A DNA stretch of 64,000 nt from a virus. How positions within the stretch are numbered: position 1 is the stretch's first letter; each line of letters opens with the position of its first letter. Shown piece by piece: positions 3,035-38,036 of this stretch. Under the pieces are notes generated by a model. That model ran no database searches. It saw only the letters and a list, made by a program, of their open reading frames with translations, and had not been told where the DNA came from. The DNA is taken from IMG/VR virus record IMGVR_UViG_3300012210_000006, positions 1-64,000 of that record. One strand, written 5' to 3'. The position numbers were made by a program, and so were the translations under genes.

Positions 3035-3104
3035 GGGCCTGTAGTCCGTTTTCACCAGCGAGGGTGATTAGGGTATCATTATGGGGGGTCTCGCTTCCAG
3101 GCCT
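3035..3104. ncRNA. nested-helix structured element, candidate RNA
   Basis: Three nested pairings are visible: GGCCTG (3036-3041) with CAGGCC (3098-3103), AGCGAG (3057-3062) with CTCGCT (3090-3095), and TGAT (3065-3068) with ATCA (3075-3078). There is no credible open frame with a ribosome binding site. The strand cannot be set. It lacks tRNA features. Confidence 0.35.
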
Positions 3105-3133
3105 AAAGCGCGGCCCCGCTACGATTAAACGTG

Positions 3134-3170
3134 AAAAAAACACCTTCTACGATGGACATTGTAGAAGGTG
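3134..3170 (-). terminator. leftward rho-independent terminator
   Basis: A perfect ten-base stem, CACCTTCTAC / GTAGAAGGTG, with a ten-base loop. On the leftward strand it is followed by seven T residues. It therefore ends a leftward transcript coming from 3171-3500, where no leftward gene with a ribosome binding site is visible. Confidence 0.75.
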
Positions 3171-3321
3171 CTGCCCGTGCTCACTGTGGCGTATTACTCG
3201 CGCCGCCTGTGCTTGATTATGTGCGGGCACGAGTCTCTGCCCCATGTTTTAGGGGTGGGGTCATGCTGGCGTTTCAGGGCCTACCCCGCGTCGCAGGAAA
3301 ACTCGTTTATTAAATGTACTT
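3171..3321 (-). ncRNA. possible leftward non-coding transcript
   Basis: The strong leftward terminator at 3134-3170 implies transcription through this GC-rich stretch. On the leftward strand the TGTCACGTTCCTG box (3322-3334) is followed about 15 bases later by TTTAATAA, a weak -10-like sequence. I see no convincing protein. This is inference from the terminator and the box. Confidence 0.25.
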
Positions 3322-3334
3322 CAGGAACGTGACA
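3322..3334 (-). repeat. inverted TGTCAC-NN-TCCTG box
   Basis: CAGGAACGTGACA on the top strand reads TGTCACGTTCCTG on the bottom strand. It matches the other boxes. From 3335 to 3508 the DNA turns AT-rich with two further TGTCAC/GTGACA hexamers (3363 and 3483). Confidence 0.5.
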
Positions 3335-3508
3335 CACTTGACACATATGATAATATATAAATGTCACAGTTTTCGCGTAATCAGATTATTTTCGGATAGT
3401 TTGCAAGTAACAAGATTGTGACAAGAATTCTTGAGTAATCGGGAATTCTTTTTATTTCTCTTTAAATGAGATTTATATAAATGTGACACATCTCCTATAT
3501 TAAATAAT

Positions 3509-3715
3509 ATGGAAATATTAGGGTGGATCGGCGATATTTTTTCTATGATTGGCGCGTATCGCATAGCAATGGAGCAGCGTGACGGCTTTCTTTTCTTTAT
3601 ATTCTCCTGTATATTTTTGTTACCGCCATTAATTGTTTTCCACATTTGGAATCAAGTTGTTTTATGTTGTGTCTATTTGCTTTTTGATATATTAGGATAT
3701 TGTAAGTGGAAATAA
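3509..3715 (+). CDS. small two-helix membrane protein, PnuC-like fragment
   Basis: A 68-residue hydrophobic protein with two membrane segments (about residues 27-45 and 47-62). The pattern GWIGDIFSMIGAYRIA then DGFLFF resembles the first helices of PnuC-type nicotinamide riboside carriers and short phage relatives, but it is far shorter than a full transporter. There is no clear ribosome binding site at this ATG. A transport role is not supported on its own; a membrane-acting accessory protein is as likely. Confidence 0.55.
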   Translation: MEILGWIGDIFSMIGAYRIAMEQRDGFLFFIFSCIFLLPPLIVFHIWNQVVLCCVYLLFDILGYCKWK

Positions 3716-6612: not shown

Positions 6613-6795
6613 ATGCTTACATTAAATGATATAAATTTATTAAAGGAAATAATGCCAAATCATATTAATGTTCATCCAAATGTTTCAATTCATGGAATTA
6701 GTTGCGAAAGAATTTATAAAAATTGGTTGTTTTGGGAAAACAATAATAGTGGAGAAATTAATAATTATTTGAAGAAATATAAGAAAGGTAACTAA
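6613..6795 (+). CDS. hypothetical 60-residue protein
   Basis: Preceded by AAGGGG at good spacing. The stop overlaps the ATG of the methyltransferase gene (TAATG). Composition is soluble and rich in Asn and Ile. No family is recognised. Confidence 0.6.
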   Translation: MLTLNDINLLKEIMPNHINVHPNVSIHGISCERIYKNWLFWENNNSGEINNYLKKYKKGN

Positions 6796-7433
6796 TGTTT
6801 TACGGACAACGACAAGAAGATCAAAAGATATGTGAACTTCTCGGTGGAGAAAATATACATCGAGAGGGTTTTTACATAGATGTAGGTGCATGGGACCCCA
6901 ATAAGGAATCCGTGACGAGATTCTTTTACGAAGAATTAGGGTTTACTGGCATTAATATCGAACCTGTTACACGTCTTTGGAATAATTTTTATCCCGCTCG
7001 TGCAAAAGATATTAATCTGAATTGTGCTATTGGTAAAAATATTGGTAAACAAACAATGAAAGTTGTTTGTAATGGACATGAGATTACTGGATTGAGTACG
7101 TTGCATAAGCAAAACTCTGATAATGCCTGTGCAGGTCGTAACTCATATGAACAGGATGTTGAGGTTTTTACATTAGAGAGCATCTGTGATACATGGGCAC
7201 AAGGAATTGAAATAGATTTTCTGAAAATCGACGTTGAAGGATATGAAGCGGAAGTTATTTATTCTGGTAATTGGGCAAAATATCGTCCAAAGGTGCTTTG
7301 TATAGAAGCGACTGTTCCCTTATCGGATGTAAAATCAGACTCTTGGGATAGTTATGTCAGAGTGATATGTAAATATGATTTTGTTTATTTTGACGGACTT
7401 AATAATTTTTATGTTCGTAGGGAAGGTTGGTGA
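6795..7433 (+). CDS. FkbM-family methyltransferase
   Basis: A 212-residue SAM-dependent methyltransferase. GFYIDVGAWDP (residues 26-36) is the SAM-binding motif I, GINIEPV is the acidic loop, and FLKIDVEGYEAEVI (about 144-157) is the FkbM signature. FkbM enzymes usually methylate hydroxyl groups on sugars or polyketides. In a phage it may modify a glycan on the virion or cell surface, perhaps with the glycosyltransferase at 23498; that link is inference. Confidence 0.9.
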   Translation: MFYGQRQEDQKICELLGGENIHREGFYIDVGAWDPNKESVTRFFYEELGFTGINIEPVTRLWNNFYPARAKDINLNCAIGKNIGKQTMKVVCNGHEITGLSTLHKQNSDNACAGRNSYEQDVEVFTLESICDTWAQGIEIDFLKIDVEGYEAEVIYSGNWAKYRPKVLCIEATVPLSDVKSDSWDSYVRVICKYDFVYFDGLNNFYVRREGW

Positions 7434-7916: not shown

Positions 7917-8585
7917 ATGGCGAAGACTCAATATAAGTTGGCAAAAACTCTCTCACTCCAAGCAAGACTCAAGCAGGTAATGCGTCTTCACCTTGGAGGT
8001 CTTTCTCATTACGCCATAGCGAGAACAATGGAATATAGTATCGAACAGGCAAAAAAGGATGTTGCCACGATTTCACATGCGACAAAAGAATGGGAAGACG
8101 TTGGGGAACATTTAAAGGATACTGTTGCAAGAACTGGTGAGTTATTAAAATCTTTGAAATTTCAACAGGACTTGCTTCAAAAACAACTAGATTATGCGAA
8201 CGAATGGGTTGTTCAATTGGATCAAATGGGTTCTCCTTTACACGAGAGATTAGATAATGGGGAATTAGGTCCAGTTTTATATGGTCCTCGTGACTCTCGT
8301 CTTTCTTTAGCTTTATCATCAAAAATTACCGACTTAACAGAACAACAAGGAAAACTTCTTGGTGTGTATGCAAAAACGATGGACGTTACGGTTCGCTTAG
8401 AAGAATCAGAACAAACAACAATGCTTGTTCTTCAGGCGATTCAAGAGTGTGCTCCTGAGTTACAATCGAAGATTGTTCGCAAACTGAAAGCATTAAAGGC
8501 TTCTGAGGACACTTTTTCTAATATTGAAGTAGAAACAATCGAAGGTGAGTATGAAAATTTTGAAGGACGTAAATTAAATGCCTAG
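7917..8585 (+). CDS. terS: putative terminase small subunit
   Basis: A 222-residue protein directly upstream of and overlapping the large terminase gene. The N-terminal 50 residues contain an HTH-like segment (LHLGGLSHYAIARTMEYS) and residues 75-120 look like coiled coil, the order expected for a small subunit that recognises the packaging site and forms a ring. Assigned mainly by position and architecture. Confidence 0.65.
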   Translation: MAKTQYKLAKTLSLQARLKQVMRLHLGGLSHYAIARTMEYSIEQAKKDVATISHATKEWEDVGEHLKDTVARTGELLKSLKFQQDLLQKQLDYANEWVVQLDQMGSPLHERLDNGELGPVLYGPRDSRLSLALSSKITDLTEQQGKLLGVYAKTMDVTVRLEESEQTTMLVLQAIQECAPELQSKIVRKLKALKASEDTFSNIEVETIEGEYENFEGRKLNA

Positions 8586-11490
8586 TAATCCAGGTGGAGT
8601 TGATGGGCATCATTTAGGTGGCGGAGCGAGGAAAAAGAATCGCACGTATCTTGATATTGATAATGTTTCGTCTAAAGCATCGAAATTAATGACCTCTCTT
8701 GATGATTATTTGGCGGCATTACCAGACGAAGATGAAGTAATTGATGAAGTTTTTAAGGAAAAGTTTGTTGATTTAAAAACATGGTTATATGCTCCTGAGT
8801 ATATGGGATTAGAGATTCGTCTTTCTACAATTCAATATGAAGTTCTGGAAGCTATGGGGGATTATAATCCTAAAACTAATCCTTATACTGAAGGAGTATG
8901 TGAATGGGGAAAAGGTTCGGGGAAAGACTTTATCTCTGCTTTATGTGCATTAAGGTGTGTGTATTGGTTATTGTGTCTTAGGAATCCATATATTTATTAT
9001 GGACTTGCTAAGGGAACTGGTATTCAATTATGTAATATTGCATATACTGCCGAACAGGCAATTTATGTTTATTTTAAACAATTAACAGGATTAATTAAAG
9101 CATCTCCTTGGTTTATGAAGCAAAAACCTGATATTAAAAAATCTCGTATTGATTTTCCCAATGAAATTACCCTTGTGTCTACCTCAACAGATGGAGATTC
9201 GGCTGAAGGACAAAATTTAATATTTGCCGTTATGGATGAAGCCTCTGCATTTAAGGATTCTAAAACAATTAAGGCACAAACAAGAAAGGATGGTGTCAAG
9301 GTTGATCGTGCTGCTGACGCTATTTATAAGGTATTAAGAAGTTCTGTGAACTCTCGGTTTCCTAATGCTGGTAAGGTATTGATAATTTCATATCCTCGCT
9401 ATAAAGATGATTATATTGAGACTAAATTAGCTGAAAATAAAGAAGCGAATAAGGGTTTTGTTTCTGGTCCATATGCAACCTGGGAGGTTAATCCTTCAAG
9501 AAAAAGAGAACATTTTAATGAAGACTATGAAAAGAATCCAGAATTAGCAGATGCGATGTATGCGTGTGTTGGTGAAAATACATTAGTAAATGATTGGTGG
9601 GGAGGATTAACTTTAATTAAGGACTCTAATAATTCAATTTATAAAGGAAAAAAACAAACTTTTAGATTAAAAACATTATTAGGGTATGAAATTGAGACAA
9701 CTGTGGATCATCTATTATTAGATGAATATCAAAATTGGAAAAAATTAGAAGATTATAAAATTGGTGATAAAATAAGTGTTTGTCAAAATGAGCAGAAATT
9801 TGGTTCTTATGAAGAAGATTTAAGAATTGCCGAATTAGTCGGACAAATGGTTGGAGATGGATGGGTTGGGAACGAAAATAATAAAAAACCAGAATGTGGA
9901 TGGGCTTATGCAACACAAGATATGGATTTAATTCAAAGACATATGGGATTTCTCCTAGAATTAGGAGAAAATTTTAATGTTAGTGCTGTTCGAACATTGA
10001 GTGGTAAAAAAACTTGCACAGGTATAAGACTAAGAAATCAAGATGCATATAATAGATGGTTCACCTTATTAGAAGGTCATAAAATGGCATGGAATAAAAG
10101 AGTGCCTTCTTGGGTTATGCAAGGAACAAAAGATGTTGTTGTTGCATTTTTACGAGGATTATTTGAAGCCGACGGATGTGTTAATAAACAATTAGACTGT
10201 AGTTATTCAAGTGTTTCTTTTAATTTAGTTAAAGAAGTCCAATTATTATTAGGATTATTTGGAATAACTTGTCCAATTAGACAACACCAAGGTAAATGGA
10301 ATGAATCTTTAAATGCAAGAACTAAAACTTCTTGGACAATTCAATTATCTCATGTTAGGAGTAGACAATTCTTTAAAGAAATTGGATTTATTTCCAATAG
10401 AAAACAAAATAGAGGAATTGAATTATTGAATTCTCCTGAATGTAAATGGGTTCGACCAACTCATTTAGAATATTATCCAGATATTATTGTTTCAATTGAG
10501 GATTCTGGAATTCAGGATGTTTATGATTTATTAGATATGCCAAATCACATGTTTTATGCAAATGGATTAATTGCTCATAATTGTAACCCTCCGTTTTCTG
10601 AGGATGGGTGGGTAAAATATCCTGATCGTTTTCTGAAGTGCGTTGCAAATTCTGTAAAACTTGGAACATTAAAATCTCCGATAGATGAAGATGGGATTTA
10701 TGATCCGTTTTTCCAAGGCATCCCAGGAAAATTATATTGTATTCATGTCGATTTAGCTTTAAATGCTGATAAATGCGCCTTATCTCTTGCTTCACAAGGA
10801 AATCCGATCATAAAGGAGAAATGTCCATGTGGAGCAAATGCTCCCTGGGACGAACGATATGAAGTTTGTAGTTCCTGTGGTCTTGCTAAGGAGAAATGGC
10901 TTAAAATAACGATGCCTACAATGGTAGTTTCTCTTTTGAAGCATTTTAAACCAAGAAATTCTGCGTCAGGTAGAAAAGAAGTTCATTTTGCAGATATTCG
11001 TGAGGAGATATTATTTCTTCGTGATCGTGGACACAAAATTTGGGCCTTATCATATGATGGATGGCAATCAAGGGACTCTATTCAGACAATGCAGAGGTTG
11101 TTAGGGAAGAGAATTATTAAAGATCGTTGGGGTCAGCCTCTTAAAGAAGAGGAAATTGCTCAAACATTATCGGTTGATCGTGATACGAAGGCATATGACA
11201 CTTTAAAAGAGTTTATTTATGACGAAAGGTTTTATATTACTCCTCCTGCAAGTGTGAAGAAAAAAGAAGATTGGGAAGAATCAGAGGACCCTGTGGCGAT
11301 TGCTTATCGGGAATTTAGAGGATTACGCCTAATCAACTGGAAGAAAGTAGATCATAGCCTGGGGGCTTCAAAGGATTTTACAGATGCTTTAGCTGGTTGT
11401 GCCTATTGGGTATCACAAATGCCAATGTCACGAGGTAGAGGGCCATCTATTAGTGGTTGGCGCGAAAACATGGATATTGTTAGGAGATGA
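8578..11490 (+). CDS. terL: terminase large subunit interrupted by an intein
   Basis: A 970-residue precursor. It packages DNA into the prohead using an ATPase and a nuclease. The ATPase domain shows WGKGSGKDF (Walker A) and LIFAVMDEAS (Walker B). Residues 330-668 are an intein; removal leaves a 631-residue enzyme. After the intein come a zinc-ribbon-like CPCG / CSSCG pair and nuclease acidic residues in HVDLAL, SYDGWQ and FTDALAG. It overlaps the small subunit gene by 8 bases and is followed at once by the portal gene. Confidence 0.95.
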   Translation: MPSNPGGVDGHHLGGGARKKNRTYLDIDNVSSKASKLMTSLDDYLAALPDEDEVIDEVFKEKFVDLKTWLYAPEYMGLEIRLSTIQYEVLEAMGDYNPKTNPYTEGVCEWGKGSGKDFISALCALRCVYWLLCLRNPYIYYGLAKGTGIQLCNIAYTAEQAIYVYFKQLTGLIKASPWFMKQKPDIKKSRIDFPNEITLVSTSTDGDSAEGQNLIFAVMDEASAFKDSKTIKAQTRKDGVKVDRAADAIYKVLRSSVNSRFPNAGKVLIISYPRYKDDYIETKLAENKEANKGFVSGPYATWEVNPSRKREHFNEDYEKNPELADAMYACVGENTLVNDWWGGLTLIKDSNNSIYKGKKQTFRLKTLLGYEIETTVDHLLLDEYQNWKKLEDYKIGDKISVCQNEQKFGSYEEDLRIAELVGQMVGDGWVGNENNKKPECGWAYATQDMDLIQRHMGFLLELGENFNVSAVRTLSGKKTCTGIRLRNQDAYNRWFTLLEGHKMAWNKRVPSWVMQGTKDVVVAFLRGLFEADGCVNKQLDCSYSSVSFNLVKEVQLLLGLFGITCPIRQHQGKWNESLNARTKTSWTIQLSHVRSRQFFKEIGFISNRKQNRGIELLNSPECKWVRPTHLEYYPDIIVSIEDSGIQDVYDLLDMPNHMFYANGLIAHNCNPPFSEDGWVKYPDRFLKCVANSVKLGTLKSPIDEDGIYDPFFQGIPGKLYCIHVDLALNADKCALSLASQGNPIIKEKCPCGANAPWDERYEVCSSCGLAKEKWLKITMPTMVVSLLKHFKPRNSASGRKEVHFADIREEILFLRDRGHKIWALSYDGWQSRDSIQTMQRLLGKRIIKDRWGQPLKEEEIAQTLSVDRDTKAYDTLKEFIYDERFYITPPASVKKKEDWEESEDPVAIAYREFRGLRLINWKKVDHSLGASKDFTDALAGCAYWVSQMPMSRGRGPSISGWRENMDIVRR
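9565..10581 (+). mobile_element. intein with LAGLIDADG homing endonuclease in TerL
   Basis: A 339-residue intein. It begins with Cys (CVGENTLVND), has the TVDH block B motif, and ends FYANGLIAHN followed by Cys as the first downstream residue, as class 1 splicing requires. LVGQMVGDGWVG and FLRGLFEADGCVN are the two LAGLIDADG motifs of a homing endonuclease, so it is probably mobile. It interrupts the protein after ADAMYA. Both domains look intact. Confidence 0.95.
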
Positions 11491-11491
11491 A

Positions 11492-13105
11492 ATGCCTTCT
11501 AAATTAAACAATAATGTTAAACAAGAAAGAAAAAAGTTTAATTTTGAGGTCCTGAAAAGTAGTCAGGATTCTTTTCAACGTGATATTTCTGCTTTTATGG
11601 AGAATATAACAAAAAGAAGATTTTTTGAATTATCAGAACAAATTAAGAATTCCACTGTTGCACAGAAAAAGGGAGTAGGCAAGAATTTAAAATTGCGTCT
11701 TCCTATTTCGACTATTGCTGGATTTGGTAATCAATCAGAACAAACATTAATGTCTGCGTTCGGATGGTACTGGGAACCTCTTTTGCATGATCTTGCTTTT
11801 TTTGACGAAATGCGAGCAGCAGTTTCCCTTATGTCTGGTCAGGTAAATAAATTAGTCGATACTGCTCTTTGTGGATTTCGCATTGCAAATGACGATCCAG
11901 ATGTGTTACGAGATTTAAATGAATTACTGATGTATAATCAGAATGTAAATTTGAAAGAGTCTATTCGTAATGCAATGGTTGATCTTTTCTCCCTCGGTAA
12001 TTGTTATAAAAAACCAGAATGGACGAAAATTAAAGACGGGAGAACAACCCTAGAGGTTATTCGTCCTATTCGTTCAAATGCTATTCGTAAACTTAGGAAT
12101 GACCATTTAGCGACAGAGGGATATGTTCAATTATTGCATCGTCCCTCTGAGTTTATTCTTGGTGGAACGCCGCATACACCTACAATTTACCTATATGACG
12201 AAGTATTATGTGGAATACAGCGGTCATTTGGATGGTATGCATACGGCGAACCTCTTGGTGCATCATTGCCTTTCGCAATAAGGCTTAAATTACAAATGGA
12301 ACGTGATCTTGCAGAAATGCTTCATCAACATTTGCCAAGAATTGTCGTGACGTTTTCGCCCGATGAACAAATGAATCAAGAACAAGTTGATAAGTCTAGG
12401 GATGATTTAAAAACACAAATTTCACAAATGCGACCAACAGATAACTTTGTGACAACTCCCGATGTTGTTGTTTCTTACGCTGGTCCACAAGGACATGCAT
12501 TAGACTTCTCTTCTACACAAAAACATATTGAAGAGCAATTATTTTATGTTCTTCCTTTTGCTCCGGCGATTATGGGGCTTGATTCTAAAGGAAACCCTTA
12601 TGATTCTCAACAACATTGGACTGTTGCTTGTTATACCGCCTATGATCTTCGGCATGAAATAGACGTAATGTTCCGACCTATGTTTCGTATCATAGAAGAA
12701 GACTGGGGATGTGGTCCAATTACTCTTGCTTACGACGATCTTGATCCCGAGATGACTGCGAAACATGCTGAGACTGATGAATATGTTGCGAATAATGCGG
12801 TATTAAAACGAGATAATGGATTTATCGACCAAGATACTGCTGCACAACAGGCAACCGCTCATCATCCAGACGGTCCTGTTAAAAAAGCTGCAAAACCAGG
12901 AGCAATTCCTCCTCCGGTCGATAATACAGGAGTAAAAGACGGAGGAGCACCGGGAGGTTCTGGTTCTAAGGTAAGAACAAAAGGTCCTAAAAAGGATGGA
13001 ACGAAGGTTCCCGATAAGGATAATCGCCCAAGAGGGAAAAGACATTCCCGGCAACAATTTGCGATTACGGAATGGGCGCTTGCACAATTAGAAGAAGAGG
13101 ATTAA
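11492..13105 (+). CDS. portal protein
   Basis: A 537-residue protein in the usual place after TerL. Portals form the dodecameric DNA gate at one head vertex. Long helical stretches (MEENITKRRFFELSEQ-like start, a central LRHEIDVMFRPMFRII helix) fit the family. The C-terminus is a low-complexity Pro/Gly/Lys tail (GSGSKVRTKGPKKDGTK). The ATG at 11492 has TAGGAG upstream; a longer frame from 11399 lies inside terL. The assignment rests largely on order and size. Confidence 0.8.
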   Translation: MPSKLNNNVKQERKKFNFEVLKSSQDSFQRDISAFMENITKRRFFELSEQIKNSTVAQKKGVGKNLKLRLPISTIAGFGNQSEQTLMSAFGWYWEPLLHDLAFFDEMRAAVSLMSGQVNKLVDTALCGFRIANDDPDVLRDLNELLMYNQNVNLKESIRNAMVDLFSLGNCYKKPEWTKIKDGRTTLEVIRPIRSNAIRKLRNDHLATEGYVQLLHRPSEFILGGTPHTPTIYLYDEVLCGIQRSFGWYAYGEPLGASLPFAIRLKLQMERDLAEMLHQHLPRIVVTFSPDEQMNQEQVDKSRDDLKTQISQMRPTDNFVTTPDVVVSYAGPQGHALDFSSTQKHIEEQLFYVLPFAPAIMGLDSKGNPYDSQQHWTVACYTAYDLRHEIDVMFRPMFRIIEEDWGCGPITLAYDDLDPEMTAKHAETDEYVANNAVLKRDNGFIDQDTAAQQATAHHPDGPVKKAAKPGAIPPPVDNTGVKDGGAPGGSGSKVRTKGPKKDGTKVPDKDNRPRGKRHSRQQFAITEWALAQLEEED

Positions 13106-15029: not shown

Positions 15030-15572
15030 ATGCCTGCACAATTTCCGAGAGTCAACGGGGTCTTAGTTGATCCTCATACTGCACAAATTAATTCTTTGTA
15101 TCCTGATCCGTCGCTTTTGGCTGGTTCAACGAATGCTTCTTCGGTTGTGCCGATAACGGGTTCGAGTGCTCAATACGGGCAATTGTGGCGTGGAATGCCA
15201 GTTTATATTAATAACACGACTGGTAAATTGGTTCCTCCGAATGATGCAGGAGTTTCTGGTTCGACTTCGATTTATACGGGTGTGCTTGTTGATGATCTAT
15301 CATCTTTTAAGCTTGCACAGGGAACGAAGGTTTCTTATATTATGCGTGGGCGTATTCGTTCTTACGCTGGTGGGGCCTTAATGGTTGGAGATTGGGTTAA
15401 ACCTGATGTTTCTGCTAATTTTTCAGGTTTTGTTAAATGGGTCGATGGAACCGACGATGTGATTTATCGTGTTGGACAGTTTCTTCCTATAGATGATGGT
15501 TCGGCTGAGAATGGTTCTTCTGCTGGAACTGCTGCTGTTCAAGGTGATTCGATTTTCGTTAATCTTGTCTAA
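15030..15572 (+). CDS. putative head decoration protein
   Basis: A 180-residue protein between scaffold and capsid, with GAGGAG before the ATG. It is Gly/Ser/Val/Asp-rich and likely all beta (TKVSYIMRGRIRSYAGGALM, GDWVKPDVS). Its position fits a capsid-stabilising decoration protein, made in amounts similar to the capsid protein. No firm family match. Confidence 0.6.
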   Translation: MPAQFPRVNGVLVDPHTAQINSLYPDPSLLAGSTNASSVVPITGSSAQYGQLWRGMPVYINNTTGKLVPPNDAGVSGSTSIYTGVLVDDLSSFKLAQGTKVSYIMRGRIRSYAGGALMVGDWVKPDVSANFSGFVKWVDGTDDVIYRVGQFLPIDDGSAENGSSAGTAAVQGDSIFVNLV

Positions 15573-15626: not shown

Positions 15627-16739
15627 ATGTCAGTTTTGAAAAAAATAAATCTTCAAGAAGCCGTTACGAAATTGGTTTCGGAGATTGGCGAGCGCATCCC
15701 TCTGAAAGCTTTTGATAAAGTCAAGAAAACTTCAGTTGCTGCACAATGCCGTGAAGCTGGCATCTCTCTTGGAGAACTTGCGGAGTCTCTTGGGTATGAT
15801 GGTGCTGCTTCATTTTTGAAACAGCAAATGGGAGTGGATGTTAAAACGCTTCGTTTAGAAGAACTTTGGACTTCTGACGAATTGCACGGTATGCAACCGG
15901 AATTGTTCTTGGATACAATTTTGATGGCAAACCTGAATGCAATGGTTATGCATAATGTTGTCACGGAGATTCCGATTGAGCGTGGCGAGATTGTGATTCG
16001 TACGTTTGAAGATGCTGGTCAGGTTTATGAACTTGGTCAAGGACAAACGATTCCTGACGATCAGGGTATTATCATCCGTCGTACGCATTATGTGAAGAAA
16101 ATTGGTCGTGGTCTTAATTGGTCTTATGAAGAGCAACGCCGTACGCAATTTCCTTTGATTCAGTTGAATCTTATGCGCGTTGGTCTTCGCATGGCTCTTA
16201 AAAAAGACTTGGACATTCTTAATGTGCTTCGTACGGGTATCCCTGCACAGTTGGCAAATGGTCAACAGCCTGCCCAGGCGGCTATTGCGACTCCGACTTC
16301 GATTTCACAATCGAATACGGTTGGTTCCGGTGTGCCTGCTGGACAGTTGGTTTTTGCCGATGTTGTGCAAATTGTTACGGACATTGCGAATCGTAATTAC
16401 CATGGTGATTTCGCGGTTATGTCGCCAGTCACATATGGTAAGTTCGCTCTTATTCCCCAGGTTTCTAATTACCTGAATGCCGGTCCAATGGCATCAAAAG
16501 TTCTTGAAACTGGCGTGATTTCACATTTCTTTGGTCTTGACTTGTTTATTACGAAGCAGATGCCCGATAATGAAATTCTTGCTGGTCAAAAGGGATTCGC
16601 AGGAGTATTGTTTGTCGAACAACCGCTTCTTCTTGAAGAAGAAAAGATCATTTCGAAACAGATTGAGCGTTGTCAGGTTACGGAATGTTATGTTCCGGCT
16701 GTGTTGTATACACAAGCTTTGACGAAAATGGACTTCTAA
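15627..16739 (+). CDS. major capsid protein
   Basis: A 370-residue protein after protease, scaffold and decoration genes, the normal place for the HK97-fold capsid protein. An N-terminal helical region (residues 1-70, an expected scaffold-like delta domain) is followed by a mixed domain with VTEIPIERGEIVIRTFEDAG, and TDIANRNYHGDFAVMSPVTY near the middle of the second half. It ends VLYTQALTKMDF. The codon use is rich in G/T-ending optimal-looking codons, as expected for a highly made protein. Confidence 0.8.
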   Translation: MSVLKKINLQEAVTKLVSEIGERIPLKAFDKVKKTSVAAQCREAGISLGELAESLGYDGAASFLKQQMGVDVKTLRLEELWTSDELHGMQPELFLDTILMANLNAMVMHNVVTEIPIERGEIVIRTFEDAGQVYELGQGQTIPDDQGIIIRRTHYVKKIGRGLNWSYEEQRRTQFPLIQLNLMRVGLRMALKKDLDILNVLRTGIPAQLANGQQPAQAAIATPTSISQSNTVGSGVPAGQLVFADVVQIVTDIANRNYHGDFAVMSPVTYGKFALIPQVSNYLNAGPMASKVLETGVISHFFGLDLFITKQMPDNEILAGQKGFAGVLFVEQPLLLEEEKIISKQIERCQVTECYVPAVLYTQALTKMDF

Positions 16740-16764: not shown

Positions 16765-16770
16765 ATGAAC

Positions 16771-17220
16771 GTGAAGAAACTTCTGTCGCTTATATCCTTA
16801 CTTGCAATTACCTGTGGTATTGCTCAAGCACAAAGCATTTCTCTTTCTCCTGGTGTTGCCCAACAGGCCGTTCCTGAGTTTTCTCGCTGTGGATATTCTG
16901 TTGCAATATCTTCTTCGACAGCCGCAACAACTCTTTTATCTGATGGTACGTTGGTTGGTCTTGGACTTCATGTATGTGGTTTCGAAGTTCAAATTGTTTC
17001 TGGGACTTCACCGACTTTTAAATTAGTTTATGGTACGAAAGTATCTACTGACTGTGACACTGGTGCAATTAATGTAACTGGTGCATTTGCAGGAACTGGT
17101 GTATTTACTTCTAGTGGTATTGGAATGCAAATGAATATATCAAGTGGAAAGGAATTATGCATCATTGCGGGGGGAACATCTCCTGTTCTCGCGGGATTTG
17201 TGACCTACGGGTATTGGTAA
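16771..17220 (+). CDS. exported protein 1 of structural module
   Basis: A 149-residue protein with a classic Sec signal peptide (MKKLLSLISLLAITCGIAQA, predicted cut after AQA). The mature part is Gly/Ser/Thr-rich and probably beta, with four Cys residues suited to disulfide bonds. The GTG at 16771 is at the right distance from AGGAG; the ATG at 16765 is too close. It directly follows the capsid gene. An exported protein here is unusual: it may act at the cell surface, or reach virions released from or assembled near the membrane. Confidence 0.75.
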   Translation: MKKLLSLISLLAITCGIAQAQSISLSPGVAQQAVPEFSRCGYSVAISSSTAATTLLSDGTLVGLGLHVCGFEVQIVSGTSPTFKLVYGTKVSTDCDTGAINVTGAFAGTGVFTSSGIGMQMNISSGKELCIIAGGTSPVLAGFVTYGYW

Positions 17221-17221
17221 G

Positions 17222-18007
17222 ATGCAAAAATTCAAAATAATAGGATTGCTGTTTTTAGCAATCCTATTAGGCTTTGTTCATGTCGGTAATGTTTCGGCTC
17301 AAACATTTGGGACGAATATTCCTTGTTTTAATGCTGGTCTTCCTGTTCCTACTCCAGCAGTGACGGGACAAGTAACCGCTCCTATATGCATTAATGGAAA
17401 ATTACAAGTAAATGCGATTGGTGGTTCTACTCCTGTTCCCTGTGTAACTGACGGAGCAGGCATATGCTATGTTCATCCGACCGCAATACCGACATTGAAC
17501 GTACATAGCGTTGATCCTACTCCTATTCCTGTTCCGACTTGTAATTTAGGAATTCCCTGTGTGCAGATAACCGGAGCACCTACATTTCCGCCTTTGCCGA
17601 CGCCAATTCCAAATTCAACGTCAGTGCCGTATTTCGTGTCGTGCATTGTTGTCTCTTCCGGCGTATGTCCAACTCCGTTAGCAATTCAACCTGTATCGCC
17701 GGCTACAACCGTGACTCCCGCCACGCAGATAACAGCAGCGGCTTCAATAACGTCGATTGTGTTGTTTGCTGGAAATGCTTCATTAAATGGATTTACGATT
17801 TGTAATTCATCTACGTCTGATGCCTATTTCAACTTCGGGACAACTGCGACGCTAGGATTACCTTTTTGGCAACACTTTCCTGCGGTCACAGTATCTCCTA
17901 CGGTCGTAGAACCGTGCTTTACTTTATATGGAGTTGGCATATATCGTGGCCCTATATCGGCTATATCGACATCGGCAACAGGATTCTATGTTTTGACGTG
18001 GTGGTAA
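17222..18007 (+). CDS. exported proline/threonine-rich protein 2
   Basis: A 261-residue protein with an N-terminal signal peptide (IIGLLFLAILLGFVHVG, predicted cut near VSAQ). The middle is a Pro/Thr/Val-rich linker (VPTPAVTG, DPTPIPVPTC, PPLPTPIPN). The C-terminal domain, from about residue 165, is beta-like (SITSIVLFAG, AYFNFGTTA) and ends FYVLTWW, which resembles the FVTYGYW end of the preceding protein. It is probably a related binding domain on a stalk. Confidence 0.75.
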   Translation: MQKFKIIGLLFLAILLGFVHVGNVSAQTFGTNIPCFNAGLPVPTPAVTGQVTAPICINGKLQVNAIGGSTPVPCVTDGAGICYVHPTAIPTLNVHSVDPTPIPVPTCNLGIPCVQITGAPTFPPLPTPIPNSTSVPYFVSCIVVSSGVCPTPLAIQPVSPATTVTPATQITAAASITSIVLFAGNASLNGFTICNSSTSDAYFNFGTTATLGLPFWQHFPAVTVSPTVVEPCFTLYGVGIYRGPISAISTSATGFYVLTWW

Positions 18008-18008
18008 A

Positions 18009-18827
18009 ATGATTATATTATTGCGATCTTTTATTACTCTGTGTTTTGTTGTTGTTCTTAATTCAGTGGTCACGGCGCAATCATGGCCCCCATCGAGCGG
18101 AGGCGGGGGCGGAGCAGTTTCGTCGGTTTCGAATACCGACGGCTTCCTTGATATTTCCCCTACAACGGGAGCCGTTGTAGGTGGCCTGCATGTTGAGCCT
18201 GGAACACAGTGCTCTAGCGTTTTCGGCACCTCTTTTGCCTTTATCAGCACCGCATTCGGTCCTCCCACAGGGATGACATTTGACGGTTTAAATATCGGCG
18301 TTTGCTCAGATATTTACGCCTCCCAGATGCATGCTAGTGTATACCAAGCCTTGCAAACCACAATCACTCCTAGCGAGTATATGTGGGTCGATTATACCAA
18401 TAATCCAGGGAACGGCATCGGAGCAGGTACGGGCGTGCTCAACGGGATAACCTGCGAGATTCTTCAAATCTCAACGAACACGTTCGGCGGGACAACCGCA
18501 TGTACTCTCGGGATGGACAGAAACGGTACGTTGACCACGCAAAGCGGGGCTGTTTTTGGCCCCGGAACCGTAAAAACATTCCCCTGGCATCCGGCCACTG
18601 ATCCATCGTGCACCGTGTCGGCGGGCGGCACTTCCTGCACGACGACGTTCAACGTTCCGGATACTTCAATGCGGTGCACCGCCAATGACGAGGCTACGGC
18701 GCTGGGCGGAATCGGCTACTCAATTGCTGTATCCGCTCCGTCAAGTACGACCGTCACGCTAACATACGGGGCAGTTGGCGTCATAGCGGGTGGAGGAGTT
18801 GCGACCTTCTCGGTGGTATGCAATTAA
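18009..18827 (+). CDS. exported glycine-rich protein 3, GC-rich gene
   Basis: A 272-residue protein with a signal peptide ending near VVTAQS, then a Gly run (SSGGGGGAVSS) and a beta-rich body with several Cys residues (TCEILQIS, SCTVSAGGTSCTTTF). The base composition is clearly more GC-rich than both flanking genes, a sign of recent acquisition. The glycine linker and beta body recall adhesin or tail-spike domains, but there is no clear family. Confidence 0.75.
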   Translation: MIILLRSFITLCFVVVLNSVVTAQSWPPSSGGGGGAVSSVSNTDGFLDISPTTGAVVGGLHVEPGTQCSSVFGTSFAFISTAFGPPTGMTFDGLNIGVCSDIYASQMHASVYQALQTTITPSEYMWVDYTNNPGNGIGAGTGVLNGITCEILQISTNTFGGTTACTLGMDRNGTLTTQSGAVFGPGTVKTFPWHPATDPSCTVSAGGTSCTTTFNVPDTSMRCTANDEATALGGIGYSIAVSAPSSTTVTLTYGAVGVIAGGGVATFSVVCN

Positions 18828-18871
18828 AAGAGAGCAGGAATGTTTTCGATTTTAATCGAAGGAGATTATTT

Positions 18872-19315
18872 ATGAAGTTTTTAGCATTTCCGATTTTAGC
18901 AATTATTCTTCTTGGTGCTTCTCGTAATGAAATTCCTATTAAAGAATTAACTGTTCGGCATGAAACACAATGCGATTATTCATATGATCGTCAGGAAAAA
19001 ATAGCTGTTGATTTTTGTTTATTGGCAGCAGACGAATGGGCACAGGTCGCTGCAAAATATAATAAAAAACCAGAAGGACTTTTCGCAGAGATTATGGAAG
19101 CATTAACAAGGACGCAAACATCTATGGCAATGAAACATGAAGGTAATGTTAATGCATTATCACAAATGGACTTAGCATTTACTATTGTTAAGGGAGTTTG
19201 TCGAGAAGATGAAGCAGAGTTTGCAATTCAAGCATGTAATGCTGTTGGACGTGCCGCTGTAAAGAACTTTCCAGAAGTATATACATTTACAAAACCACAG
19301 GAGAAAATAAAATGA
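18872..19315 (+). CDS. exported protein 4
   Basis: A 147-residue protein from an ATG with AAGGAG at good spacing. It has a short hydrophobic N-terminus (KFLAFPILAIILLGAS) that fits a signal peptide or anchor. The mature part is helical with four Cys residues (ETQCDYSYD, VDFCLLAAD, KGVCRED, IQACNAVG), possibly two disulfides. No family is recognised. Its end overlaps the lipoprotein gene. Confidence 0.7.
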   Translation: MKFLAFPILAIILLGASRNEIPIKELTVRHETQCDYSYDRQEKIAVDFCLLAADEWAQVAAKYNKKPEGLFAEIMEALTRTQTSMAMKHEGNVNALSQMDLAFTIVKGVCREDEAEFAIQACNAVGRAAVKNFPEVYTFTKPQEKIK

Positions 19316-19539
19316 AATACCTTTGCTTGTTAGGTCTTCTTGCTCTTACTGCGTGCAAAACTGGTTTTGGTATAACGGTTGTCGGCAGTACGCCGGTTAA
19401 AATTAGTGTTCCGATTCCAGGAACCTCCCCATTACTTCTTACCTGTTCGACAAATACGTTTGTTTGTGAAGGAGATATGGTTGTCGGTGGACAAGTAGTC
19501 CATATTACGGCTTCAAAAGCTGTTCGCGTTGTTCATTAA
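19312..19539 (+). CDS. small lipoprotein
   Basis: A 75-residue protein with a textbook lipobox, LLALTAC at residues 9-15, so Cys15 would be lipidated and the protein anchored in a membrane. The mature part is short and beta-like with one more Cys pair (LTCSTNTFVC). The ATG overlaps the preceding stop (ATGA). Phage lipoproteins of this size often block superinfection or act in lysis; neither is shown here. Confidence 0.75.
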   Translation: MKYLCLLGLLALTACKTGFGITVVGSTPVKISVPIPGTSPLLLTCSTNTFVCEGDMVVGGQVVHITASKAVRVVH

Positions 19540-19567: not shown

Positions 19568-20155
19568 ATGTCTTTATCTTCAGAAGAAAAACGTAATCTT
19601 GATACCCTTGGTGTGACGCATATCTCTATTGAGAATGGCGGATTTTATCAAGGTATTACCCCAGGTGGTTTCCCCGATGTGCAAACGCATATTAAGGTTC
19701 CAGGACCAAAGGTGGAATTTGTTGATGCTTTTAGTCGAGAGATCAAAGCATTTAAAGAAATTCCTGAGCCCGTTCAATTTCCTCATTTTAAAATTGTTCT
19801 TGAGAAAAATGAACGGTCTGGGTTGTTGGAAGAAATTGAACGGGATTTTAATGCGATGGATATTGACCCTATCCACCTTGGATTGCTTTTTGCTCTCCAG
19901 ACTGGCGTCATTCGTTATGTTCCAGAATATGAAATGCAAGAGAAATATCCTGATACGTGGGCAAAACGCTCTTTGAAACTTGTTTGGCGCAATGCGTCGG
20001 ATAAGCCGGAAAAAACGAATCGTCAATTGTTGGATGAAGCGGAACAATCCGACTCGTACTTAAGGAACTCTAAGGAAGTTTCTACTCATGTAAAAGCGGT
20101 TCAAACTGCTCTTGCAGAGGGAAAGGTTCCTCCGAAGCCTCTTGCGTTTAAGTAG
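19568..20155 (+). CDS. hypothetical structural-module protein
   Basis: A 195-residue soluble protein with GAGGAG before the ATG and no signal peptide. It begins MSLSSEEKRNLDTLGVTHIS; the C-terminal third is helical (RQLLDEAEQSD). It is followed by a strong terminator, so it closes the head-gene transcript. No family is recognised. Confidence 0.65.
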   Translation: MSLSSEEKRNLDTLGVTHISIENGGFYQGITPGGFPDVQTHIKVPGPKVEFVDAFSREIKAFKEIPEPVQFPHFKIVLEKNERSGLLEEIERDFNAMDIDPIHLGLLFALQTGVIRYVPEYEMQEKYPDTWAKRSLKLVWRNASDKPEKTNRQLLDEAEQSDSYLRNSKEVSTHVKAVQTALAEGKVPPKPLAFK

Positions 20156-20165
20156 GGTAAATAGC

Positions 20166-20200
20166 AAAAGCCCTATCTTATACATAGGGCTTTTCTTTTT
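20166..20200 (+). terminator. rho-independent terminator after the head genes
   Basis: AAAAGCCCTAT pairs with ATAGGGCTTTT around a short loop and is followed by CTTTTT. It divides the head and exported genes from the connector and tail genes. Confidence 0.9.
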
Positions 20201-23403: not shown

Positions 23404-23484
23404 GTGAATACTTATATCCTAAAAGTTCCACAATTAAAACTCTTTGGTATTAAATTACCTGAGAGTTTTTCTTTGTTGCAATAG
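23404..23484 (+). CDS. possible 26-residue ORF
   Basis: A short frame from a GTG with GAGGAG about 9 bases upstream. It ends at a TAG immediately before the next ribosome binding site. It may be a leader peptide coupled to the glycosyltransferase gene. Support is weak. Confidence 0.3.
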   Translation: MNTYILKVPQLKLFGIKLPESFSLLQ

Positions 23485-23497
23485 GAGATTATTTAAA

Positions 23498-24739
23498 ATG
23501 TTTAATAAAAAACATAAAATTCTTGCTTTGTCAGATTTTGGTGTGAGCGGAATTTCCGAGAGCGCGATTGGGCCGCTTAAACATTGGCACGAACAGGGTT
23601 ATGAAATTTTTCATCTTGCTTTGGGATTTAACGGAATATCTGCTGGAGTAGATGAGCGTTTATATCCTTGGAGAAATCGCCTTATGCCGGTTAATCCCGG
23701 TTCCGAAGCTACCAAATTCGGGCAATTGCAAATTAAAAACGCACTTGAAATTTCTCAAGCAGATGTTCTTCTTACCACGTTCGACGTTTGGATGTGTGCG
23801 TATATCTCGCAACCAGAAAATGCTACAAATTTAGACGAAGCAACGCGCAAAGTTTTGTCACATCAACATCGTAAGTTTCACCATATCATGTTGTATCCGA
23901 TAGATGGTGCTCAACAAAATAAATACTTGCCATTGGGAATGGAAGAATCAATACTTGGGGCTGACACTCCAATTACATATTCTAAGTTTTCGCAAAACTT
24001 GATGAAAACGAATTTCAATATCGAAGTTCCATATATCCCAATAGCACATGATCCTAAAATATTTAAACCGATGGATAAAAAAGAATGTCGTCGGCAGTTG
24101 TATTTAAAAGAAGACGGTTTTTATTGCGCGATGGTCGGAACGAATCAATACCGAAAGTTGTTTGGAGATTTCTTTGACGGAGCAGTTCCGTTTGCAAAAG
24201 CACATGATGACGTGTATTTGATTCCCTTTACGACCTGGGATATGCAGATTTTGGGAGGGACGGATATAAAATCTCATGTGTATAAATCAGGAATTGGTGA
24301 TCGCATTATTGATCCCTCTAATCTTGTTGGAAAACTTTCTGCCGAGGGCATGAGCATGTTTTACAATGCTATGGATGTTATAGTATTGTGTACCGTTGGA
24401 GAAGGAGCCGGGCTTCCTCCATTGCGCGCCCGCGCTTGCGGCGTACCTGCGTTGGTGTCAGGTAATACTTCCAATATTGAGTTTGCGGGGCATCAGTTTG
24501 AGCTTATCAAGAATCGCGGCAAATACTACGATAATTTCGGTTCCAATCTTGAGCGATACCTTACTGATACTAACGATCTTCGCGAAAAACTAGAAACCTT
24601 ATATAATAATCCCTCATTTCGACATGAGGTGGGACAAGCGGGACTCGCACATATGAAACAATTCGAAGTTGATAATGTAATGCCTGCGTGGGATAAAATT
24701 CTTGATAATATTCCTGATCGAACCGAAGAGGTGGCGTAA
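23498..24739 (+). CDS. glycosyltransferase (GT4-like, GT-B fold)
   Basis: A 413-residue enzyme with AGGAG before the ATG. The N-terminal domain starts KILALSDFGVSGISES, and the C-terminal domain has VGEGAGLPPLRARACGVPAL, the nucleotide-sugar binding region with the Glu and Pro-Pro pattern of GT4 enzymes, then VSGNTSNIEF. It would transfer a sugar from an activated donor. Sitting between tail tube and tail chaperone genes, it may glycosylate a virion protein; this is inference. Confidence 0.88.
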   Translation: MFNKKHKILALSDFGVSGISESAIGPLKHWHEQGYEIFHLALGFNGISAGVDERLYPWRNRLMPVNPGSEATKFGQLQIKNALEISQADVLLTTFDVWMCAYISQPENATNLDEATRKVLSHQHRKFHHIMLYPIDGAQQNKYLPLGMEESILGADTPITYSKFSQNLMKTNFNIEVPYIPIAHDPKIFKPMDKKECRRQLYLKEDGFYCAMVGTNQYRKLFGDFFDGAVPFAKAHDDVYLIPFTTWDMQILGGTDIKSHVYKSGIGDRIIDPSNLVGKLSAEGMSMFYNAMDVIVLCTVGEGAGLPPLRARACGVPALVSGNTSNIEFAGHQFELIKNRGKYYDNFGSNLERYLTDTNDLREKLETLYNNPSFRHEVGQAGLAHMKQFEVDNVMPAWDKILDNIPDRTEEVA

Positions 24740-25374
24740 TGCGATATATAATTATTTCGCCAAACCAAATTAACGATCCTCATGTGTATAAAATTGCACA
24801 ACTTCGAAATGAGTTTATGCATAATGCTAGAGTGGTGAATGGCGATGAAGTCGAATCTATGGAAATTATTGATTTTAGTATTTTCGATTATCAGTATGAG
24901 GATTTTTATAAAAACTTTAATGAAAAGAAAGAACTTGACGGCTCCTGGAAATCTATGTGCTTTCTTAATGAAGAAGTTTTACCTGATCTTAGAAAAACTT
25001 TGGTAAGTTTAATTCGGGATAAAGAAAAAGATATTATACATGTTGATCTTGGGAAATCAATTCTGCCTTTATATCTTGCGTATTTCGCAATTCTCGAAGG
25101 TGTTGCCCTTAACGTAACATTTCATGTTCCTGATCCTACCGATGAGAAACCAAGTTTTAATATTGGAGGAGATAGCGCATATTCAAATCCTCGGAATAAT
25201 CTGCGTCGTTATCTCGCAACACAGATTATGAAAAATGCAATGACTGTTTTTATTGATGATCCCCGCATTGTTCAAATTCTTAATCATTTGTTCCCTCGTG
25301 TAAATCGCGAGATTCATCTTGATCCTCTTGTTCGTATAGAAAAAGAAGAGAGCGAGTTACAAAATGTTAAATGA
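24739..25374 (+). CDS. hypothetical protein coupled to the glycosyltransferase
   Basis: A 211-residue soluble protein whose ATG overlaps the glycosyltransferase stop (TAATG). It begins MRYIIISPNQINDPHVYKIA, a Rossmann-like strand start, and has DIIHVDLGKSILPLYLA in the middle. It could be a partner or a second diverged transferase. No family is recognised. Confidence 0.6.
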   Translation: MRYIIISPNQINDPHVYKIAQLRNEFMHNARVVNGDEVESMEIIDFSIFDYQYEDFYKNFNEKKELDGSWKSMCFLNEEVLPDLRKTLVSLIRDKEKDIIHVDLGKSILPLYLAYFAILEGVALNVTFHVPDPTDEKPSFNIGGDSAYSNPRNNLRRYLATQIMKNAMTVFIDDPRIVQILNHLFPRVNREIHLDPLVRIEKEESELQNVK

Positions 25375-36984: not shown

Positions 36985-37413
36985 ATGAGTGATTTTATTG
37001 CGAATCATTTACAAGGTCTTGCTGCTGCTATTTCCGCTGGAATAGCTCTCGCTGGAGTTATTCTTGCCTCTCCGCATCTTAAGAAGATATTAAATATATT
37101 TAAATCGAAAAATGATTTAAATAGTGCATATTATGCATTATTAAAACAGTTTACTGAAGATCGTGAAGCCTGGCGCGAAACAATGGTTTCCTGGAAGGGA
37201 ACAGCAACAGCCCTACGATCAGAGATGGTTGTTCTGAAGGAACGTCTTGGTCGATTAGAGGCAGAACTTGAGCGATTAATTCCTAAATACAGATCGGCGT
37301 TAAAATTTATTCTCGAATTGAAAAGTCATATTGTTGAAAAAGATATGCCTAAGACTCCAGAATTAATTGAACATGATTTGGATCAAATTTATCAGGAGAT
37401 ACAACCTCAATGA
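36985..37413 (+). CDS. membrane protein before the lysin, holin candidate
   Basis: A 142-residue protein. One N-terminal hydrophobic segment (GLAAAISAGIALAGVILAS) is followed by a long charged coiled coil (TALRSEMVVLKERLGRLEAE). It overlaps the endolysin gene by four bases (ATGA). Position suggests a holin, spanin-like or holin-regulating protein, though most holins have more membrane segments. Confidence 0.55.
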   Translation: MSDFIANHLQGLAAAISAGIALAGVILASPHLKKILNIFKSKNDLNSAYYALLKQFTEDREAWRETMVSWKGTATALRSEMVVLKERLGRLEAELERLIPKYRSALKFILELKSHIVEKDMPKTPELIEHDLDQIYQEIQPQ

Positions 37414-38036
37414 ATATTTTAGATGTTTCATATTCACAAAAAAATATAGATTATAAAGCAGTAAAAGAAAGTGGTGAAGTAGAAGCTGTTTGTATCAGAG
37501 CTTCTCAAGGGCACACCATTTCGGATGAAATGTTTAAAATTCACCATGACGGATTTAAATCTGTTGGTATACCTATTGGTGCATATCACTTTTTTATGTT
37601 TGATTCTTCCCCTGCACAACAAGCACAATTCTTTTTAGAGCAAATCGCCGGTCGAGAAGGTGAACTGTTACCAATGGTTGACTGTGAGGGGGATAGCCTG
37701 TTAAACGATCCGCACAGTTCCATTGGTGATCGTATGCAATGGTTACACACTTTCAATGCATATTTGTTAGATCATTTCCCTGCTCCGTGTCATAATTTAC
37801 TTCTATATACTCCTCTTGATTTTTGGAATACGAAAATGAATGGGACCTCTGCCTTTCAAGGTCATTTTTTATGGTTAGCTGAATACAACAATGATTCTCG
37901 TCCAGAATTACCAAAAGGTTTTGTTGATTGGAAGCTTTGGCAACATACGAGTAAAGGGGCAGTAACTGGAATTGATTCCCCGGTTGATCTTTCTTATTTT
38001 AATGGATTTTCTCTTGAGGAGATTACAAGAAAATGA
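37410..38036 (+). CDS. endolysin, GH25 muramidase
   Basis: A 208-residue glycoside hydrolase family 25 lysozyme that cuts the glycan strands of peptidoglycan. It shows LDVSYSQKNIDYKAV, IRASQGHTISDE, IPIGAYHFFMF and the catalytic-site motif LPMVDCEGDSL with the acidic pair. A C-terminal WLAEYNNDSRP and WKLWQHTSKGAV-type motif follows. There is no separate cell-wall-binding domain and no signal peptide, so release depends on a holin. Confidence 0.93.
   Translation: MNILDVSYSQKNIDYKAVKESGEVEAVCIRASQGHTISDEMFKIHHDGFKSVGIPIGAYHFFMFDSSPAQQAQFFLEQIAGREGELLPMVDCEGDSLLNDPHSSIGDRMQWLHTFNAYLLDHFPAPCHNLLLYTPLDFWNTKMNGTSAFQGHFLWLAEYNNDSRPELPKGFVDWKLWQHTSKGAVTGIDSPVDLSYFNGFSLEEITRK

Follow-up and report, generated by a model that had tools for sequence, protein, structure and literature searches.

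What are genes for apparently exported proteins doing in the middle of a phage head module? The question is raised by IMG/VR record IMGVR_UViG_3300012210_000006, an uncultivated virus record of 70,111 bp, of which we analyzed positions 1 to 64,000 (64 kb; hereafter, the window). Its genes run from a small terminase candidate through large terminase, portal, protease-like, decoration-like, and major capsid genes to a block of five consecutive open reading frames (ORFs; 16765-19539), followed by connector and tail genes; functional names were assigned from PHROGs plus reading of the sequences. The block, whose products we call P1 to P5, has the major capsid gene on one side and the next virion genes on the other. 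The reading we prefer, and put forward tentatively as quite possible, is that it encodes late-made, secreted, fiber-tip-like adhesins that may act at lysis on the host envelope or receptors, independently of the virion.

Signal peptides were called with a home-made rule of the von Heijne type (charged n-region, uncharged hydrophobic core, and −3/−1 cleavage site). At a score cut-off of 4, the rule flagged exactly P1 to P5 among the 69 called genes of the window, and with random placement the probability that the five flagged genes would be neighbors is 6e-6; gene calls were simple, and count statistics throughout include related sequences. The original prediction had described five consecutive genes for exported proteins between capsid and connector genes, with Sec signals on three large proteins, a signal or anchor on the fourth, and a lipobox on the fifth, and both statements are borne out. 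All five genes are on the + strand: P1 (16765-17220, 151 aa; signal AQA↓Q) is predicted to be Sec-exported, with a C-terminal jelly-roll domain and two predicted disulfides; P2 (17222-18007, 261 aa; VSA↓Q) has a proline-rich linker; P3 (18009-18827, 272 aa; VTA↓Q) is modular and fiber-like; P4 (18872-19315; LGA↓S) is predicted to be exported; and P5 (19312-19539), a 75-aa ORF, is a predicted 60-residue lipoprotein (lipobox LTAC). The P4 ORF was listed as 18818-19315 (165 aa), but the signal is encoded from the ATG at 18872 (or 18866), which comes after AAGGAGATTATTT. For P1, the start could equally well be the ATG at 16765 or the GTG at 16771 (the coordinate used in the original prediction), the latter having AGGAG 8 nt 5' of it, and the homolog in a close relative (L001, described below) starts at the matching GTG. 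P1, P2, and P3 are separated by 1 nt, the genes of P4 and P5 share 4 nt, and promoter-like sites show no excess within the block. Export of the five proteins is well supported by sequence and stands as a strong prediction.

The argument from related proteins rests on P1 because P2 to P5 have few or no relatives: P2 has one and P3 two, while P4 and P5 have none among the 8,696 ORFs of the fetched loci. Starting from a weak match in cultured Synechococcus phages, we reached a signal-bearing protein whose core is that of P1, and we sampled the family by searching viral contigs for the pattern Y-G-T-G-x-N-C-x-x-G, which gave at least 120 stretches. The P1 domain was present in 100 of the 108 ORF-bearing pattern matches among the viral stretches listed, which places the family in at least 100 viral contigs. 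Window P1, the founder of this YGTGxNC family, itself reads YGTKVSTDC rather than YGTGxNC at the core, and its YGT, C97, and C132 align with the family. It has the defining features, namely a YGT core, an invariant cysteine, and a second invariant cysteine about 35 residues on (77 sequences), together with a Sec signal and a C-terminal domain. In each of 119 ORFs, the domain is the very C-terminal part of the protein; these proteins range from about 130 to 1245 aa, and a few members carry two or three copies. Signals were predicted for 72 of the 80 non-redundant members with complete starts versus 41 of 425 genes of the same contigs at a distance of four genes or more, both figures being inflated by the scan over several starts. 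Gln occupies +1 after the predicted cleavage site in 58 of 73 members, and the immediate neighbors of family genes are exported in 35% (at −1) and 39% (at +1) of cases. The family lacks a Pfam model, is almost missing from PHROGs, and has no match by sequence in the PDB; the literature searched described neither the family nor any such exported block in the head module of a phage. For these sources, the suggestion that the block is undescribed is upheld.

The original prediction also held that such a block is rare in a head module, and this did not survive comparison: similar exported genes lie beside capsid, portal, terminase, and connector genes in many unrelated environmental phages. The nearest non-exported 5' neighbors of family genes match major head (phrog_212 in nine, phrog_1005 in four), head morphogenesis, protease, portal, and terminase families, and the nearest 3' neighbors match head-tail adaptor, neck, portal, scaffold, and major head families. 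In the unrelated contractile-tailed phage L014, the capsid gene is followed by three exported genes, one of them a P1 relative, and then by a connector-like gene; in the podovirus-like L022, L062, L114, L088, L117, L121, and L129, a capsid gene and a decoration-like gene are followed by two or three exported genes. Exported blocks thus recur in phage head modules. In L088, an exported neighbor also has a T4 gp9/10-like stretch.

Could the N-termini be signal-like hydrophobic segments of ordinary cytoplasmic head proteins, removed, for example, by the prohead protease? In favor of this, a Porphyromonas phage study reports capsid proteins with predicted signals whose removal it ascribes tentatively to the prohead protease (PMC10367356). 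For the present block, we consider this very improbable: sites of the AxA or lipobox type are found in five of five proteins, signals are kept in 90% of a diverse family along with the frequent Gln at +1, and the covarying cysteine pairs need an oxidizing place. The cysteines can be followed in some detail. Mature P1 to P4 have 4, 10, 8, and 4 cysteines, and P5 has 2 plus the lipid cysteine, so that the count is even in all five; the cysteine content of the block genes is 2.7-5.3% versus 0-3.3% in the other right-arm genes. The mature count is likewise even in all 10 exported proteins from four other contigs, related or unrelated (one protein has no cysteine), and family-wide the counts are even in 60 and odd in 13, several of the odd counts being misplaced cleavage sites, compared with 189:178 for non-exported genes. 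In P1, cysteines 97 and 132 are invariant across the family (77 sequences), which is partly a selection effect because the search pattern demands the first cysteine. Cysteines 42 and 71, which were not selected for, are both present in 49 sequences, both missing in 21, and discordant in 7 (Fisher p 3e-13, related sequences included), and most of the discordant sequences carry a replacement cysteine pair. This outer pair thus covaries as disulfide partners would, and the parity and pairing fit what folding in an oxidizing compartment would show. Between the window and L001, 11 of 19 signal codons of P1 differ non-synonymously versus 30 of 129 in the mature part, with signal hydrophobicity kept; a fast signal on a conserved mature part is, as judged from these codons, the pattern of real signal peptides.

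Structure prediction with a fold search, a check named in the original prediction, was carried out for P1. AlphaFold2 modeled mature P1, with 76 relatives, as an all-beta jelly roll (pLDDT 81.7, pTM 0.70), and in a Foldseek search of the model against the PDB, nothing reached E 0.001. After realignment, the matches included Ena2A, with Z 9.5 at rmsd 5.5; the trimeric cement protein of Helicobacter phage KHP40, with Z 8.8 at rmsd 2.8 over 108; the turret of HFTV1, with Z 8.6 at rmsd 3.4; and C1q domains, with Z about 7. Predicted viral structures matching at E 1e-4 to 1e-6 included several named virion structural proteins. The KHP40 and HFTV1 proteins (PDB 7dou, 8qpg) resemble the P1 model in the arrangement of the jelly roll; however, identity is 6-12%, and P1 has a predicted signal and disulfides. 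Ena endospore appendages (PDB 7a02, 9i0y) are disulfide-linked extracellular fibers of jelly-roll subunits (Z 8.7-9.5 to P1, rmsd >5), but they are Bacillus spore pili with 7-8% identity to P1. Because jelly rolls are common, the fold supports a structural or binding role weakly. The last beta-strand is conserved at the family's C-terminus (consensus GxVSYxQF), and the P1 end of the FVTYGYW/FYVLTWW type is this strand; a similar end had been thought to be shared by P1 and P2 (FVTYGYW and FYVLTWW), but profile comparison shows no homology, with a P2 profile of only two sequences. An outer-membrane beta-barrel was rejected, since the family ends Y-x-Q-F, with Tyr at −4, where a barrel signal would have aromatics at both −1 and −3, and the model is a jelly roll.

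The structural matches bring in the main rival explanation, that the proteins are virion appendages, exported for the sake of disulfides, which would stay periplasmic until lysis and then be mounted on passing heads or tails as decoration or receptor-binding fibers. We regard this as possible but, on balance, unlikely. The cement, the turret, and the predicted virion proteins all speak for it, as does the position of the genes next to capsid and connector genes in unrelated phages, although jelly rolls are common and Z values of 7-9 are middling. We know of no tailed phage that loads Sec-exported parts. A broader version, that many environmental tailed phages add Sec-exported, disulfide-bonded parts to cytoplasm-assembled particles only during lysis, in a second, extra-cytoplasmic assembly stage, appears somewhat more doubtful still.

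Fiber-like architecture, which would also suit virion appendages, is seen in the closest relatives. The survey of related phages that had been suggested for this block was made with capsid and P1 profiles and recovered L001 and L002 only; their capsid proteins are 86% and 78% identical to that of the window, and both have exported genes in the same slot. L001 has three, a P1 homolog (72%), a P2 homolog (39%; 11632-12201), and a third protein. In L002, the capsid-connector slot contains genes for small membrane proteins, for an exported trypsin-like protease (3054-3677; PF13365, phrog_9683, GDSGAG motif), and, directly 3' of the protease gene, for an exported collagen-like protein. In the collagen-like protein, the C-terminal module is one also found in window P3, and the N-terminal module is one also found in the third L001 protein; this apparent module exchange is, at the sequence level, like that of phage fibers. 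P3 itself was predicted with a pLDDT of 40, order and beta-richness being confined to the last 80 residues. A jelly-roll tip, a collagen shaft, and exchangeable modules are thus points in favor of a virion appendage.

P4 and P5 are absent from L001 and L002, which bears on the proposal that these two alone form a lysis pair (inner- and outer-membrane spanins), leaving P1 to P3 as the exported block. The overlap of a short lipobox protein with an exported partner is as expected of spanins, and L001 lacks both together. Yet the pair is not by the lysis cassette: the holin-like gene (36985-37413) and the GH25 endolysin gene (37410-38036) are 17 kb away, and P4 has a signal of the cleavable type and four cysteines, so we consider the proposal improbable.

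Does the partner of these proteins lie in the virion or in the host? One indication comes from prophages. A motif scan of bacterial genomes gave six true members among 118 stretches (Novosphingobium, Acetobacteraceae, one further bacterium, and three Acidobacteriota bins), and in one of them (L329), the family gene follows a probable capsid gene. A genome scan with the family alignment gave no match, the motif scan gave few prophages, and among 299 and among 297 genomes of two clades, the family was in the pre-selected genome only. With 100 of 108 viral versus 6 of 118 bacterial stretches, the P1 family is, by these pattern counts, phage-specific. Novosphingobium sp. FSW06-99 has two prophages with the family, L348 with a podovirus-like portal and capsid and L349 with contractile-tail baseplate genes. 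These have in common a cassette of a holin-like gene and one or more exported genes (L348 16552-19900, L349 7736-11498): the holin-like gene is 88% identical over 253 bp, the mature N-terminus of the exported gene is nearly identical, and 2.8 kb match at 83.5%, with two further exported genes in L348. Outside the cassette, only 100 bp match, at 75%. An exported module that appears to have moved between virion types within a single host suggests the host, rather than a particular virion, as its partner; a virion appendage with the same mature N-terminus would be expected to meet different attachment sites in two unrelated virion types. The original prediction had offered three functions, coating of the infected cell, a block to superinfection, and decoration of virions, and each of them stays a suggestion: the shared cassette leans toward a host-facing role, while fiber-like architecture and gene position lean toward virion appendages.

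The presence of the family in prophages also fits secreted adhesive or matrix-altering factors (biofilm, EPS, attachment) that serve the lysogen or infected population, as lysogenic-conversion cargo in a late operon. The proteins are predicted to be secreted, and large members sometimes have carbohydrate-active stretches (GH16-like in L043). Against this, the position in a structural operon predicts late, not lysogenic, expression, and there are no lysogeny genes among the annotated genes of the window, where the lysogeny search was incomplete. Such a role seems improbable to us.

Under the preferred reading of late secreted adhesins, the block proteins would be translocated by Sec, fold and form disulfide bonds in the envelope, and remain in the periplasm or outside the cell until it lyses. 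They could then mask receptors or glycans of the infected cell and of its debris, so that superinfection would be blocked or new virions kept off the remains. The place of the block in the late operon would simply mean strong late expression. Phage proteins exported to the host envelope are known: Llp of T5 is a superinfection-exclusion exoprotein. Ltp of TP-J34 is a superinfection-exclusion lipoprotein encoded by a single lysogeny-module gene, and Glo of a Vibrio cholerae phage is a soluble periplasmic superinfection-exclusion exoprotein (PMC3952083). The block shares with these the proposed destination, but Ltp is one lipoprotein, whereas the block encodes several mostly soluble proteins in a head module, the first of which ends in a jelly roll. 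P1 to P4 are not filed with the Ltp type because only P5 has a lipobox, the others being of the signal-peptidase I type; they may nevertheless work like Ltp-type exclusion proteins. The nearest statement that we found concerns tailed phages of Porphyromonas gingivalis, which are reported to encode Sec-exported proteins of obscure function with Gln at +1, like the P1 family (PMC10367356); compared by description only, that report gives no family, fold, or cysteine pattern.

Several points weigh against secreted adhesins. Secretion and cleavage of the block proteins are predicted from sequence, their binding is proposed, and the signal rule is home-made, with a scan over several starts that raises the number of matches. 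Fiber-like shafts (the collagen repeats of L002, the T4 gp9/10-like neighbor in L088) would suit a virion part equally, as would the position within structural modules, and Ltp, unlike the block, is a lysogeny-module gene made in the prophage (PMC3952083).

The features that border the block are all on the + strand. The major capsid gene (15627-16739; phrog_3922 E 5e-14, phrog_1650, and PF25209 at its cut-off) forms the 5' border and is preceded by a gene for a small, non-exported protein without cysteine (15030-15572), decoration-like by position, whose homologs precede the capsid gene in L001 and L002. On the 3' side, a non-exported gene of the connector region (19568-20155) is conserved directly after the block in both relatives and is followed by a terminator-like hairpin (20166-20194) that closes the stretch with the block. 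None of the cultured phages of the collection has a relative of the window capsid protein, P3, or the L002 collagen-like protein. A perfect hairpin (17238-17269, +) lies within the signal-peptide coding part of P2 and has a counterpart in L001 (11652-11681), with a compensatory change between the arms of the window (GGATTGCT/AGCAATCC) and those of L001 (GGAATGCT/AGCATTCC); its stability exceeds that of all shuffles (z −3.75 and −4.49), and it is perhaps a translational or RNA-processing signal. L001 also has a strong hairpin between the capsid gene and P1 (11129-11158; ATAATCCCCC...GGGGGATTAT), which may attenuate transcription into the exported genes; there is none in the short window gap.

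Elsewhere in the window, the large terminase (8578-11490) has 970 aa versus 631 aa in L001, with an intein-size insert (CVGENTLV... to ...AHNC). An FkbM-type methyltransferase gene (6795-7433) lies 5' of the packaging genes, and a glycosyltransferase gene and a partner gene (23444-25374) lie in the tail region; virion or glycan modification is a possible role for these. Remote terminase relatives (L140-L219) have a conserved exported protein (MNSFKKIAL...) directly 3' of the terminase gene, followed in many by a PA14-domain protein that is likewise exported and has a hydrophobic C-terminus, plus an exported subtilisin-like protease (for example, L151 11822-15227 and 17860-18738). These terminase-linked genes are a second, unrelated exported set in environmental phages, and because the clade is remote (~30% identity) and has its own unrelated exported genes, a terminase-based survey is unfit as a neutral baseline.

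The family can be studied in culture. The cultured Synechococcus phages Ssp-JY42 and Yong-M4-211 carry a signal-bearing P1-family member (XAI96956.1) beside a second exported gene; unlike window P1, it is a 2-cysteine version in the tail/fiber region, annotated as hypothetical only. These two phages and the prophages of the Novosphingobium strain make the family testable. A widespread, undescribed, secreted family among the virion genes of unrelated phages suggests that many environmental phages act outside the cytoplasm in an unstudied way, a common activity that annotation has missed. If the proteins block receptors, superinfection control by phages in the lytic phase would be far more common than is known; if instead they join virions after lysis, the textbook account of tailed phages being completed in the cytoplasm would need an addition.

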